DNA of 64,000 nucleotides. Origin: Syntrophomonadaceae bacterium. Lineage in GTDB: Bacteria > Bacillota > Syntrophomonadia > Syntrophomonadales > Syntrophomonadaceae. The notes under the pieces were generated by a model, which ran no database searches, had not been told where the DNA came from, and worked only from the letters and a program-made list of their open reading frames with translations. Shown piece after piece: positions 40,379 to 46,627 of the stretch. Every line of letters starts with the position of its first letter. Within the stretch, counting starts at the first letter, position 1. The position numbers were made by a program, and so were the translations under genes. Location: assembly GCA_028706315.1 (NCBI GenBank), contig JAQWBP010000007.1, positions 1-64,000 on the forward strand. The letters are read 5' to 3'.

Positions 40379-40909
40379 TTATCTGGCTGCTTTAATGGAG
40401 CGCATTATTGTCTTTATTTCCTGCGGATCTACCCATTTGTCCTCGGTTATAGGTGAAGAACCAATCTCCAGGGAGATAACCTGCCCATCCAGAACTGCTT
40501 CCGACAACCTTAAACGTTCATCCGACCCGAGGAGAATAACTACTTCATAATTTCTCACCCGAGCAATTAAGTCCATTATTTCGTTTAATAGTTCTTTGCC
40601 GCTGCGGTTATTAACGAAGTCAAGCCTTTCTTTTTCGGTCATCAGGAAGATAAAGTCAACCCCGGCTTTCTCCAGCACCTCAGCTATTTCATCCTTATTA
40701 AGTATGGGAAAACCTAAACAGGCTACTGACTGGCCTTTACGCACTTCGCCAATTCCCTCCAGGCGGGATATGAAGGTGCGGTCAACCTGCAGGCGGTCTG
40801 CGGTCTCCTGCTGAGAAAACCCCCGGGAACGAAGCATAAGTATTTTTCTCAAGGTTTTGTCAATCTTCTGCCAGCTTATTATTTTGTCTTGAATCCGATA
40901 AAATTCCAT
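40379..40909 (-). CDS. HTH transcriptional regulator
   Basis: A 176-residue protein with an N-terminal helix-turn-helix (residues ~31-52: FSQQETADRLQVDRTFISRL) preceded by a helix, and a C-terminal alpha/beta domain (~60-170) with VACLGFPILNKDEI and YEVVILLGSDERLR that may sense a ligand. ATG 40909 is preceded by AAGGAG 8 bases upstream; a TTG seven codons earlier overlaps that site. It heads the operon with the quinate-dehydrogenase-like and Rossmann-like genes, and probably controls it. Ligand unknown. Confidence 0.75.
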   Translation of the reverse strand: MEFYRIQDKIISWQKIDKTLRKILMLRSRGFSQQETADRLQVDRTFISRLEGIGEVRKGQSVACLGFPILNKDEIAEVLEKAGVDFIFLMTEKERLDFVNNRSGKELLNEIMDLIARVRNYEVVILLGSDERLRLSEAVLDGQVISLEIGSSPITEDKWVDPQEIKTIMRSIKAAR

Positions 40910-41024
40910 GGATATTCTCCTTGCGCACAAAGTTGTTCACAATGATTTTTTGTTAATTTTATACTACTTTCTGTTTATTAGCAACTCCAGTGCGGGGCAC
41001 GGGGGTTTTTTAATTTTTAATTTT

Positions 41025-41159
41025 GATTCCACTGCGAAAAGTATTAATTATGCACCGGACTTGAGTAATTCAACGCGGAACCCGCGGATTTTCAAGGAAT
41101 TACGCGGCTTGGTTAACGTTAAAAAAGAGCTAAATAGGGATTATCCCTGCTATAATTTA
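41025..41159 (+). repeat. ~135-bp dispersed repeat, full copy
   Basis: From GATTCCACTGCGAAAAGTAT to TATCCCTGCTATAATTTA. Nearly identical to the inverse of 46765-46900; the copy at 27353-27439 is partial. All three are intergenic at operon ends. It contains a -10-like TATAAT near its right end. Confidence 0.9.
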
Positions 41160-41166
41160 TATGGAC

Positions 41167-41295
41167 CCGGCGGGGTTCTACCGCCCGGAATGCCTGTGCC
41201 CCTAAAGGGTAAATTCCAGGCTACACGAATATGCCTAATACCAGCAATATGTCCGGTACCCCCCAACCCGTGTAGAGGGGAATTCATTCCCCTAC
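41167..41295. repeat. Hairpin repeats, CCCGGAAT family (A5)
   Basis: GCCCGGAATGCCTGTGCC, CCTAAAGGGTAAATTCC, then AATATGCCTAATACCAGC, and GTGTAGAGGGGAATTCATTCC. About 110 bp of it matches 46428-46540. Confidence 0.85.
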
Positions 41296-41318
41296 GGCGC
41301 CACCAGGCAACAAAAAAA

Positions 41319-41336
41319 GGGAAACGCTAGTTTCCC
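41319..41336 (-). terminator. Terminator of coaX-dusB
   Basis: GGGAAAC / GTTTCCC with a 4-base loop, followed on the minus strand by seven T residues. It ends 44 bases past the dusB stop. Confidence 0.85.
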
Positions 41337-41379: not shown

Positions 41380-42363
41380 TTAAAATTCAAAAATAGCTTT
41401 GCTGCCCGTATGTATTCGTTTGATAATAGTGATGAGTTCGCGTCTGGTGGTGGCCTGGTTTATGTCCTGGCGGATTTTGGCTGCTCCGGACATGCCTTTG
41501 ATGTACCAGGAAAAATGCTTGCGCATTTCGCGGACGGCTACTAGTTCTCCTTTATAAAGGCAGGCTAAATCCAGGTGTTTAATAGCCATGGAGATCCTTT
41601 CTTCCGTAGTTGGTGGCTCGATTTTTCGGCCGTTTTCTACCAGCTCTACTGTTTCGCGGAAGATAAAGGGGTTACCCATGGCAGCGCGCCCAATCATGAC
41701 TGCATCACAGCCGGTATAATCCAGCATGTGCAAGGCATCTTGTGCCGTCCATATATCCCCATTACCTATAACTGGAATGTTAACATGCTTTTTCATCTCT
41801 TTAATCATGTCCCAGTCGGCCTGGCCCGAGAAAAACTGCATACGGGTTCGGGGGTGCAAGGTTACTGCGCTGGCACCTTCCTGTTCTGCTGCTCCGGCCA
41901 AATCAATACAGGTGATATGATCATCATCCCAACCTTTGCGCATTTTTATAGTTACCGGGACTTTAACGGCTTTTACTACTTCTCTTATAATGGTTCTGCT
42001 TTTTTCAATATCGAGCATTAGAGCGGAGCCTTCTCCGTTTTTGATTATCTTAGGAGTGGGACAGCCCATATTTATGTCTATGATGCTGGCGCCCATAGTT
42101 TCAATAATTTTTGCCCCTTTTATCATGGGCTCTACCTCGGAACCAAATATTTGCACGGCAATAGGCCTTTCTTCATTAATCAAGTCGGCCATACGCCTAG
42201 TTCTTTCCTGATCATAAACTAGCCCCATATCACTGATCATCTCGGTAAAGGTCATACCACACCCGCAGGAGCGGGCTATAATGCGGAATGCTTTGTCAGT
42301 AACTCCTGCCAGAGGAGCAGCCAGCACCCGGTTATTAATTGCTACGTTACCTATAAGGAACAT
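41380..42363 (-). CDS. dusB: tRNA-dihydrouridine synthase (DusB type)
   Basis: A 327-residue FMN-dependent TIM-barrel enzyme that reduces uridine to dihydrouridine in tRNA. Marks: PLAGVTDKAFRIIARSCGCG (~16), INMGCPTPKIIKNGEGSALM (~96; catalytic Cys), KMRKGWDDDH (~140), HPRTRMQFFSGQADW (~168) and GCDAVMIGRAAMGNPF (~215). The start is 3 bases after the coaX stop, with GGGGGT as binding site, so the two are co-transcribed. Confidence 0.95.
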   Translation of the reverse strand: MFLIGNVAINNRVLAAPLAGVTDKAFRIIARSCGCGMTFTEMISDMGLVYDQERTRRMADLINEERPIAVQIFGSEVEPMIKGAKIIETMGASIIDINMGCPTPKIIKNGEGSALMLDIEKSRTIIREVVKAVKVPVTIKMRKGWDDDHITCIDLAGAAEQEGASAVTLHPRTRMQFFSGQADWDMIKEMKKHVNIPVIGNGDIWTAQDALHMLDYTGCDAVMIGRAAMGNPFIFRETVELVENGRKIEPPTTEERISMAIKHLDLACLYKGELVAVREMRKHFSWYIKGMSGAAKIRQDINQATTRRELITIIKRIHTGSKAIFEF

Positions 42364-42366
42364 TTC

Positions 42367-43137
42367 TTACCCCCGGTTTAGTTCATATATTAGTCGTAGA
42401 CCATCTAGTGTAAGAAATTCGTCTACTACATTTATTACGTCTGTTTCCCTGGCGATTACAGCAGCCAGTCCACCTGTGGCTACTACCAGGAGATCCCCTG
42501 CAATCTCTTTTCTCATCCGGTTGATGATGCCTTCAACCTGCCCGACAAAACCATAAACTATACCTGCCTGCATACTGGCTACGGTGTTTTTGCCAATCAG
42601 GCTTTTAGGCTTAATTAGTTCTACCCGGGGAAGTTTGGCTGCCCGTGAGACGAGGGCTTCGGTTGATATTCTTATGCCTGGTGCGATAGCTCCGCCCAGG
42701 TATTCCCCTCTGGCATTGACGACACAAAAGGTGGTGGCAGTACCAAAATCAACTATGATTAAGGGCCGTCCGCCATATTTATGATAAGCGGCAACAGCAT
42801 TAACTACCCGATCTGCCCCTACTTCGCGCGGGTTTTCATATTTTATATCCAGGCCAGTTTTGATTCCCGGTCCTACTACCAGTGGCCGGCAGGAAAAATA
42901 GTTGTGGCACATGGTCTCCATTTCCAGCATTAGAGAAGGAACTACGGAAGCGATAGTAACTGCCTTAATCTTTTTTGCGTCGAGCTTGTTATAGTCAAAC
43001 AGAGCATTGATCATGATACCATATTCGTCACAAGTGCGCAGGGTATCAGTGCGAATTCTCCAGTGGGTGAGGAGTTTATCACCATTAAAGACTCCCACTA
43101 CCGTATTAGTATTGCCAATATCAAAAACGAGTACCAT
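42367..43137 (-). CDS. coaX: Type III pantothenate kinase
   Basis: A 256-residue enzyme of normal length for the first step of CoA synthesis. N-terminal [12 protein letters not shown] (ATP phosphate site, D6), [18 protein letters not shown] (~104) and [12 protein letters not shown] (~129) are the ASKHA-fold marks of CoaX. Works with the panBCD genes at 50445-52528. GGGGGGAG precedes ATG 43137. Its upstream region carries six palindromes of one type (43254-43561), so expression may be controlled by a repressor not encoded here. Confidence 0.95.
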
Positions 43138-43964
43138 TACGCTCCCCCCTTTTTATTAAACAACGATGTTATCTGACGTTCTCCTTGCGTTACGTTCCGA
43201 TAATAAATTACCAGCTCATAAATGTTGTTATACAGGCGTTTGTGAGGGTTTATCTAAACAAATGTTTAGGCTCTAAACATTTGTTTAGATAAATCGGCTT
43301 TAAGCCCGATATATCAAGGATCTGAGCCTGGGTTTTAATGGTATTTTGCCTGTCAGGCTGCTGGGCGTTGCGCTTTTTAGACGTTATGTCTTGTTTTTCA
43401 CGGTTCCGATAATAAATTTACACCAGTTGAAACGTTGTTATATCGGCTTTTGCGGCTGTTCTTCTAAACAAATGTTTAGAATCTAAACATTTGTTTAGAC
43501 GCCTGCATTTTTTGTTGAATTTTCATCTAAACATTTGCTTAGTCTCTAAACATTTGTTTAGATAAACCTGCTTTAAGCCCAGTATAGCAAGAGTTTAATT
43601 TTGCTGTTATTTATGACCGATATTTACCTATTGTCTAAATATTAGTTTTTTAGAGTCTTTTTCAGGAGTTAGTATTTTCAGGATTGCGAGCCCTGCTCGG
43701 GTCTAATTATATGAGAGTTTTGCTTTACAGTATATAATCTTAGTGCATAATCACCAGTTAATTTTTGGATAATTATGTTTTTAGGATTAATAGAAGTATT
43801 GAGTTTCCCTAAAAATGTGCAAAGGAGGTGATTAAATGATGTATGATGACTAGCAGCGTTTTTTAGAAATCGGATGACAACTTTGCGATTTGCCGATACT
43901 GCCTGATGACGAACCATAGAGCTTATAGAGTGGTAACGCTAATTTCGTTGGCCGTGGCACAATT
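43138..43964. other. Gene-free region with operator-like palindromes
   Basis: No convincing gene in 827 bases. The left part carries a diverged duplication: TTCCGATAATAAATT at about 43196 and 43405, each leading to GTTGTTATA and then a palindrome pair. The right part has a stray consensus ribosome binding site (AAAGGAGGTGAT, 43821-43832) before ATG 43836 whose frame stops after five codons and then shows three further stops, possibly a decayed gene. Confidence 0.6.
43254..43561. promoter_or_regulatory. Three pairs of 16-bp palindromes (operator candidates)
   Basis: CTAAACAAATGTTTAG or CTAAACATTTGTTTAG at 43254-43269, 43273-43288, 43464-43479, 43483-43498, 43546-43561 and, with one change, 43527-43542. 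Each pair is separated by exactly 3 bases (19-bp period). Pair starts are 210 and 63 bp apart. Size and symmetry fit a dimeric TetR- or MarR-like regulator; the nearest downstream gene is coaX (minus strand, start 43137). Confidence 0.75.
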
Positions 43965-44267
43965 TCACAGGAGCCATTCATAATTGCGTTTGCCATAGAG
44001 AATACGGCGAATCTGTACGGTGTCACCCTTCACAACATAAAACACAAGGTAGTTTTCCACAACCAGACAGCGGTAGCCCTTCACTTTCAGAGAATTGTTG
44101 CGCACATAAGGGCAACGCTCTGGCATCTGCGAAAGATTGCCGATTTTTTCGATAATCAGATCATAGTACCGGAGTGCGGCATCGGCAGAAAGGGTGTTGA
44201 GATAGTTGATGAGGTCCTTCAGATCCCGCTTGGCAGCGGGATATATCTTCACCTTATAGCCGTCCAT
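43965..44267 (-). CDS. RelE/ParE-family toxin
   Basis: A 100-residue toxin of a type II pair. Features: YKVKIYPAAKRDLKDLINYL at the start, SQMPERCPYV (~52), VENYLVFYVV (~75) and VQIRRILYGKRNYEWLL at the end, the ParE/RelE fold. The C-terminal RILYGKRNYEWLL is typical of the ParE branch (gyrase poisons), but an mRNA-interferase role cannot be ruled out. Its start overlaps the antitoxin gene by 14 bases, the usual coupled layout. No transfer genes are near. Confidence 0.88.
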   Translation of the reverse strand: MDGYKVKIYPAAKRDLKDLINYLNTLSADAALRYYDLIIEKIGNLSQMPERCPYVRNNSLKVKGYRCLVVENYLVFYVVKGDTVQIRRILYGKRNYEWLL

Positions 44268-44526
44268 GAACCGTATCCCTTAACTGCTTCGATATCTCAA
44301 AGAAATCCTCGCCCTGTGCCCCGCTTATGATTTCTTCCTCCGCCTCGGCTAGTTTTGCGTATAGGTTGATCAGCGCCTGCTGGCGCTCATAAGCCTCCAC
44401 GCTCATCACAACCATATCTCCCACACCGTTTTTGGTGATGAAAACCGGCTCACGGGTCTGATGGCAAATTTCCGAAATATCGTTGGCATTGTTCCTTAAA
44501 TCCGAAATGGGTCGTATATTTGGCAT
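44254..44526 (-). CDS. Phd/YefM-family antitoxin
   Basis: A 90-residue protein. The N-terminal domain PISDLRNNANDISEICHQTR with PVFITKNGVGDMVVMSVEAY (~27-46) is the Phd/YefM DNA-binding fold; the acidic C-terminal tail (~55-85) should wrap the toxin. Such proteins repress their own promoter. GAGGAGG precedes ATG 44526. The gene pair looks more GC-rich than the flanking AT-rich DNA, consistent with acquisition. Confidence 0.9.
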   Translation of the reverse strand: MPNIRPISDLRNNANDISEICHQTREPVFITKNGVGDMVVMSVEAYERQQALINLYAKLAEAEEEIISGAQGEDFFEISKQLRDTVHGRL

Positions 44527-46312: not shown

Positions 46313-46367
46313 GCGCAATAAAAACGTGCAACGTTGGTTCTAATTTTATTTTATATTCTAACTAAAA

Positions 46368-46399
46368 AAGAGAACCTCACACCTCAGGAGAGTTCTCTT
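46368..46399 (-). terminator. Terminator upstream of bioY promoter
   Basis: AAGAGAAC / GTTCTCTT, with six T residues following on the minus strand. It isolates bioY from the cofactor operon. Confidence 0.75.
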
Positions 46400-46420
46400 G
46401 CATGCTGTACATTTGATTAT

Positions 46421-46613
46421 ATCGGGGTACCGCCCGGAATGCCTGTGCCCCTAAAGGGTAAATTCCGGGCTACGCGAATATGGCTAATACCAGCAATATG
46501 TCCGGCACCCCCCAACCCGTGTAGAGGGGAATTTATTCCCCGGTATGGTTTACCCGGCGGGGTACCGCCCGGAATGCCTGTGCCCCTAAAGGGTAAATTC
46601 CGGGCTACACGAT
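46421..46613. repeat. Hairpin repeats, CCCGGAAT family (A6)
   Basis: Two long-variant units (GCCCGGAATGCCTGTGCC, CCTAAAGGGTAAATTCCGGG), at about 46432-46470 and 46566-46604, bracket a spacer with GTGTAGAGGGGAATTTATTCC. Closely matches 41167-41295. Confidence 0.85.
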
Positions 46614-46627
46614 AGGGAAATAGAAAA

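Follow-up and report, generated by a model that had tools for sequence, protein, structure and literature searches.

Tandem double operators, which are bound by two dimers, are known from many phage-type and TetR/XRE-type repressors. The array of paired palindromes described here, located upstream of the coaX gene of a Syntrophomonadaceae bacterium, is like them in that short palindromes stand in close pairs that are repeated several times near a gene, but it is not adjoined by a repressor gene, and the sites found in related genomes are operon-internal. Another system with a similar layout is that of the arginine repressor, for which the ARG-box consensus half-site is TGAAT. ArgR of E. coli binds two 18-bp boxes that are 3 bp apart (PMC6640053). 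Pairs of ArgR/AhrC boxes and the array have in common two AT-rich palindromes and, in the relatives, an association with arginine genes. The spacer of the array also measures 3 bp, but its boxes are 16 bp instead of 18 bp long and their centres are separated by 19-20 bp instead of 21 bp. In addition, the half-site is TAARCA and not TGAAT, and the arg operon of the same genome is devoid of a pair. NiaR (YrxA), which was considered because of nearby nad genes (nadB and nadC), shares an ACA/TGT half-site with the array; its motif in the Bacillus/Clostridium group is TGT-N4-ACA (PMC7713382), to which the ACA-N2-TGT of the array does not conform. REP/BIME elements and MITE foldbacks are likewise intergenic inverted repeats with local duplication, but the array differs from them by its single locus, the lack of mobile copies, the fixed pair spacing and the orthologous positions in relatives. 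The core of the palindrome, in any of six spellings, did not occur in the open literature searched. As set out below, the paired palindrome is real, resembles an operator, is largely confined to the family and was amplified in place upstream of coaX; we predict a role as an operator for it.

Sequence and copy number of the palindromes

The window, a stretch of 64,000 nucleotides from contig JAQWBP010000007.1, contains six copies of the 16-bp palindrome CTAAACA-(AA/TT)-TGTTTAG, five of which are exact and one of which (43527-43542, CTAAACATTTGCTTAG) has a single mismatch. The other copies are found at 43254-43269, 43273-43288, 43464-43479, 43483-43498 and 43546-43561. Together, the six copies form three pairs. 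Measured from the start codon of coaX (43137, minus strand), they occupy the upstream region between 117 and 424 bp; the centres are spaced 19 bp apart in all three pairs, and the pair starts are separated by 210 and 63 bp. Sequence inspection and a pattern search thus bear out the sequence-only reading of this DNA, which had reported six copies in three pairs of identical 19-bp spacing. The pattern search revealed no further copy with 0 or 1 mismatch in the window, and with up to three mismatches it yielded seven matches, a number that none of the shuffled sequences reached (mean 2.06).

Pair 1 (43254-43288, CTAAACAAATGTTTAG-GCT-CTAAACATTTGTTTAG) and pair 2 (43464-43498, CTAAACAAATGTTTAG-AAT-CTAAACATTTGTTTAG) each consist of two 16-bp palindromes that are mirror copies, with an AA centre followed by a TT centre, and hence each of these pairs is at the same time one perfect inverted repeat, with arms of 16 bp and a loop of 3 nt. 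Folded as RNA, pair 1 has a free energy of -16.5 kcal/mol. In pair 3 (43527-43561, CTAAACATTTGCTTAG-TCT-CTAAACATTTGTTTAG), each site is near-palindromic, but TT/TT centres and one C interrupt the long hairpin, and the pair is not a perfect inverted repeat.

Elsewhere in the genome of this bacterium (2.52 Mb in 94 contigs, 99.9% complete), no copy of the palindrome with 0-1 mismatch was present, the four additional matches with two mismatches equalled the number obtained with a reversed-pattern control, and the 481-bp locus had no second copy. The genome scan for the 16-mer that the sequence-only reading had proposed therefore returned a single locus, and a high-copy genomic repeat, which that reading had named as its refutation, is ruled out by this sole occurrence in 2.52 Mb.

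Duplications and helical phasing

Self-comparison of the locus revealed one tandem duplication, of unit A (approximately 43175-43318; left flank, pair 1 and right arm) into unit B (approximately 43380-43593; left flank, pair 2, a 28-bp linker, pair 3 and right arm), followed by a doubling of the pair inside unit B. The left flanks (43175-43252 and 43380-43462) are identical at 60 of 76 aligned bases (79%), which confirms the earlier observation that a block of about 75 bp is duplicated along with pairs 1 and 2. Two features had been overlooked: behind pair 3 (43563-43611) there is a second copy of the right flank of pair 1 (43290-43345), and each composite is built as an imperfect inverted repeat, the arms of which measure 45 bp. 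These arms start with TTGnTATA, which resembles an extended -10 element; around pair 1 (43225-43317), they are 76% complementary in an ungapped alignment. Despite the divergence of the flanks, all 32 palindrome bases are identical between pairs 1 and 2. Given that this would be expected in only about 1 in 2000 cases at the rate of change seen in the flank (0.79 to the power of 32, our own arithmetic), the comparison suggests that the palindromes of both pairs were kept by selection or by local gene conversion.

The sequence-only reading had interpreted the distances between the pairs as a design for cooperative binding with looping. While its arithmetic is correct, with 210/10.5 equal to 20 and 63/10.5 equal to 6 helical turns, both distances are the periods of the tandem and the internal duplication, and the phasing does not require looping as an explanation. 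By our own calculation, two distances that both fall within 1 bp of whole turns are expected by chance in approximately 8% of cases; moreover, the palindromes within a pair are 1.8 turns apart and hence not in phase. Looping of the DNA between the pairs is possible, but the spacing lends it no support, and helical phasing was discarded as an argument for it.

The coaX locus and its neighbourhood

The gene nearest to the array, at a distance of 117 bp, is coaX (42367-43137, minus strand), which encodes a type III pantothenate kinase (Pfam Pan_kinase, E 7e-84). It is followed after 3 bp by a dusB-like gene for a tRNA-dihydrouridine synthase (41380-42363, minus strand; Pfam Dus), and the two genes are likely co-transcribed. 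On the opposite side of the array, Pfam identified a ParE-type toxin (43965-44267) and a Phd/YefM antitoxin (44254-44526), both encoded on the minus strand, and, further away, an S58 peptidase and BioY; nadB and nadC also belong to the neighbourhood. The earlier statement that no regulator gene is adjacent was nearly right, with the qualification that the antitoxin gene lies only about 0.7 kb upstream and that Phd/YefM antitoxins are usually DNA-binding autorepressors. Between the array and the toxin gene there is a decayed 90-bp fragment of an insertion sequence (IS; 43732-43821), which is 76% identical to positions 19472-19561 of contig C59, the DNA just past the stop codon of a DDE transposase reading frame. 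A second Phd/ParE-like toxin-antitoxin pair is found close to that transposase frame on C59, and it seems that IS scars and toxin-antitoxin loci move about this genome together.

In many relatives, a short gap separates coaX from a preceding S58, bioY or nadC gene, and coaX is kept within a nad/bioY/S58 operon. Since the toxin-antitoxin locus and the IS scar separate the S58 gene from coaX in the genome studied here, the array is, as judged from gene order, situated in inserted or rearranged DNA, where it may today serve in place of the operon promoter that was lost. The coaX start was located in 29 relatives, and in none of them is the palindrome present at this position; a conserved coaX operator was therefore rejected, and the idea of a conserved role at this gene finds no support. 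A promoter-like site with an extended -10 element (ATAACA-18-TATACT, 43581-43610, minus strand) reads toward pair 3 and coaX; this call is weak, given that the number of promoter-like sites in the gap equals the mean of shuffled sequences. The promoter scan of the gap upstream of coaX detected no strong sigma-A promoter.

Paired palindromes in related genomes

The exact double palindrome was found in one record of a collection of 84,980 genomes, which belongs to the Syntrophomonadaceae. When inner gaps of 2-30 bases were allowed, exact pairs occurred among 54 genomes of the family in three genera, always with a centre spacing of 19 or 20 bp, and a reversed-pattern control gave zero matches. 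With up to three mismatches, pairs were detected in 7 of the 54 genomes at a spacing of 19 bp and in 11 of the 54 at 20 bp, some of the latter matches being coding, and in none with the respective controls. In a sample of 398 genomes of the phylum, such pairs with a spacing of 19 bp were present in five genomes from outside the family (control, two), and exact pairs in none from outside the family. The paired design is real and largely restricted to the family.

The argC|argJ junction carries pairs in three genera. They are near-identical to those of the window in G013 and G014 (genus g7) and have diverged in G015-G017, in G040-G042 (g19) and in G035-G037 (g17; CCAACATTTGTTTAG...ATAACAAATGTTGG). 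Pairs are also present at argJ|argB in g7; neither junction has one in the genome that carries the array. In all five g7 genomes, a pair covers the ribosome-binding site and the start codon of a gene for an ABC-class ATPase (Pfam PF09818). G042 carries a pair upstream of mqnC that adjoins the small reading frame (MTNFLPAG...) preceding the ATPase gene in g7, and the succession of an MTNFLPAGxINE reading frame and a paired palindrome is thus found before the ATPase gene in g7 and before mqnC in G042. In G047, a pair is located 3' of htpG. Because a scan of about 1.06 Mb of G016 with a paired matrix returned only the pairs at argC|argJ, argJ|argB and the ATPase gene, they are considered rare and specific there. 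The recurrence at orthologous positions that an operator would lead one to expect is hence seen at argC|argJ and at the ATPase start, but not at coaX.

Other matches were set aside. What looked like a further pair within argJ, in G042 and in g17, reflects the conservation of the coding sequence, and the matches found within rpoB, ppdK and cggR-like genes fall in coding DNA as well. The half-site logo leaves out the hits at the 3' end of icd in g21 and at that of a dehydrogenase gene in g22, which have the appearance of ordinary hairpins.

Possible functions of the paired palindromes

We consider it about 50% probable that each pair is a double operator for a putative dimeric DNA-binding protein. 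One dimer would bind each 16-bp palindrome, for which the family logo is approximately N-Y-H-A-R-C-A-W-W-T-G-Y-T-D-R-N, and two dimers would be accommodated side by side at a distance of 19-20 bp, slightly less than two helical turns. In the Syntrophomonadaceae, such pairs are placed at a few operon junctions; at the locus described here, a unit of flank, arm, pair and arm was duplicated in tandem and the pair of the second unit duplicated again, giving three pairs in the gap of about 830 bp that now parts coaX-dusB from the ancestral nad/bioY/S58 operon. On account of this position, their most likely role would be to repress or roadblock transcription into coaX-dusB. The operator proposed by the sequence-only reading is plausible in view of the single locus, the fixed and recurring 19-20 bp spacing and the palindromes that outlast their flanks, while looping and the parts specific to coaX are left unproven.

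The half-site logo, N-Y-H-A-R-C-A-W, was derived from 82 half-sites and is biased, because a search for the core brought up many of the sites. Departures from CTAAACA are distributed unevenly: positions 1-3 are variable, position 5 changes nearly always from A to G (16 of 17), and positions 4, 6 and 7 are almost fixed. This position-specific variation resembles a protein-recognition logo. Against an operator stand the lack of a regulator gene next to the sites, the single locus in this genome and the lack of a pair at its own arg operon, the failure to detect a strong sigma-A promoter in the gap, the sites of the relatives, which are not placed at clear promoters but inside operons, across a ribosome-binding site or on the 3' side of genes, and the fact that pairs 1, 2 and most intergenic pairs are near-perfect long hairpins as well.

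The last point would be accounted for if the pairs acted as stem-loops in RNA, or in extruded DNA, with a 16-bp stem and a loop of 3-4 nt that affects the processing, stability, termination or translation of mRNA at cistron junctions. Near-perfect hairpins are predicted for pairs 1 and 2, for argC|argJ of G013 and for htpG of G047 (-15.8 to -19.6 kcal/mol, z -5.5 to -9.4), and the sites between operon genes and over the ribosome-binding site of the ATPase gene are suitably placed. The AA/TT centres are not self-symmetric and appear in mirrored order at several loci, which is the main source of a borderline excess of arm complementarity over reshuffled arms (p 0.02-0.07, permutation test); in G035, arm pairing is kept with CCAACA/TGTTGG. 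However, the centre of the hairpin is broken in pair 3 and in all five ATPase pairs, and most changes at position 5 of the half-site place C opposite A on the mRNA strand, which would break an RNA stem. The spacing of 19-20 bp is held even where the arms no longer pair (G041; argJ|argB of G016), and no T-run follows the hairpins on the coaX side. The terminator scan called no intrinsic terminator at a palindrome pair, its two hits lying elsewhere on the plus strand, and Rfam gave no match above the gathering score, the sub-threshold match being a plant microRNA (27.6 versus 90 bits). We favour a DNA operator over an RNA hairpin, which appears rather unlikely. About equally unlikely is the view that the array is a small foldback or palindromic repeat of the MITE/REP type, or another mobile remnant, that came in with the toxin-antitoxin and IS debris and then multiplied by duplication at the site without regulating coaX. 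The locus is indeed an insertion relative to the relatives, whose coaX genes lack such sites, it adjoins the IS scar and the toxin-antitoxin locus, and the composite has 45-bp inverted arms. Nevertheless, neither the unit nor the palindrome has another copy in the genome, none exists in plasmids or phages, and no target-site duplication was obvious on inspection, as reading beyond the TTGnTATA arms of either unit (A or B) revealed no repeat. The better conservation of the palindromes compared with their flanks and the pairs at orthologous positions in relatives, which have drifted independently in sequence, also make a mobile remnant an unlikely explanation. An origin from a phage or plasmid was rejected, given that no similar DNA was present in either and that viral contigs do not contain the strict pair; the only looser hit (L137) has direct repeats on a viral-looking contig and shows no link to the array locus. 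Operators of ArgR itself are very improbable, notwithstanding the layout of two palindromes set 3 bp apart and the conservation of the relatives' pairs at argC|argJ and argJ|argB: the half-sites of the array do not match TGAATWW, the half-site of the 18-bp box, the sites of G016 are not upstream of argC, and neither the ATPase gene nor coaX is an arginine gene. ArgR was discarded since neither sequence nor distribution fits.

Returning to the double operator, we tentatively suggest, as a bolder extension that is more doubtful than the operator itself, that the pairs represent a new family of cis-elements of the Syntrophomonadaceae. Such an element would be a palindrome within a palindrome with a fixed spacing of 19-20 bp. 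At operon junctions, for example argC|argJ, it would serve a lineage-specific regulator (or act as a stem in RNA), and here it would have been captured and amplified to three copies, providing new control of coaX-dusB after an insertion had cut these genes off from their ancestral operon. If real, this would define an operator family in hard-to-grow syntrophic bacteria, offer the 35-bp pair as a concrete bait to fish out the regulator, and show an essential gene, the pantothenate kinase gene coaX, gaining a new and amplified control region after an insertion broke its operon.

Other repeats and reading frames

The small reading frame mentioned above encodes about 105 amino acids starting with MTNFLPAGxINE, has no Pfam match and follows ddl-like genes (L086:1113-1430, L085:1616-1930, L074:1608-1913). 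In G013 and G014, the palindrome recurs between convergent aminotransferase and TetR genes (L029/L036, G013:C146:31038-31107; L030, G014:C17:31767), on G013:C146 within a 44-bp perfect palindrome and on G014:C17 followed by a T-run, in a terminator-like manner. Since g22 genomes (L045, L047) carry a different, long and G+C-rich palindromic repeat upstream of coaX (GGGGACGGTTCC.../GGACCGTCCCC...), this junction collects repeats in several genera. Within the window, 46334-46615 and 40908-41330 contain repeat-derived reading frames with the common motif PPGMPVPLKGKFRATR ... PPNPCRGEFIP, which suggests that this genome harbours a family of dispersed intergenic repeats. A tandem array with an 11-bp unit (GTTAAACAATG/A) is located at L221:12835-12980 (G037:C1, approximately 92.8 kb).
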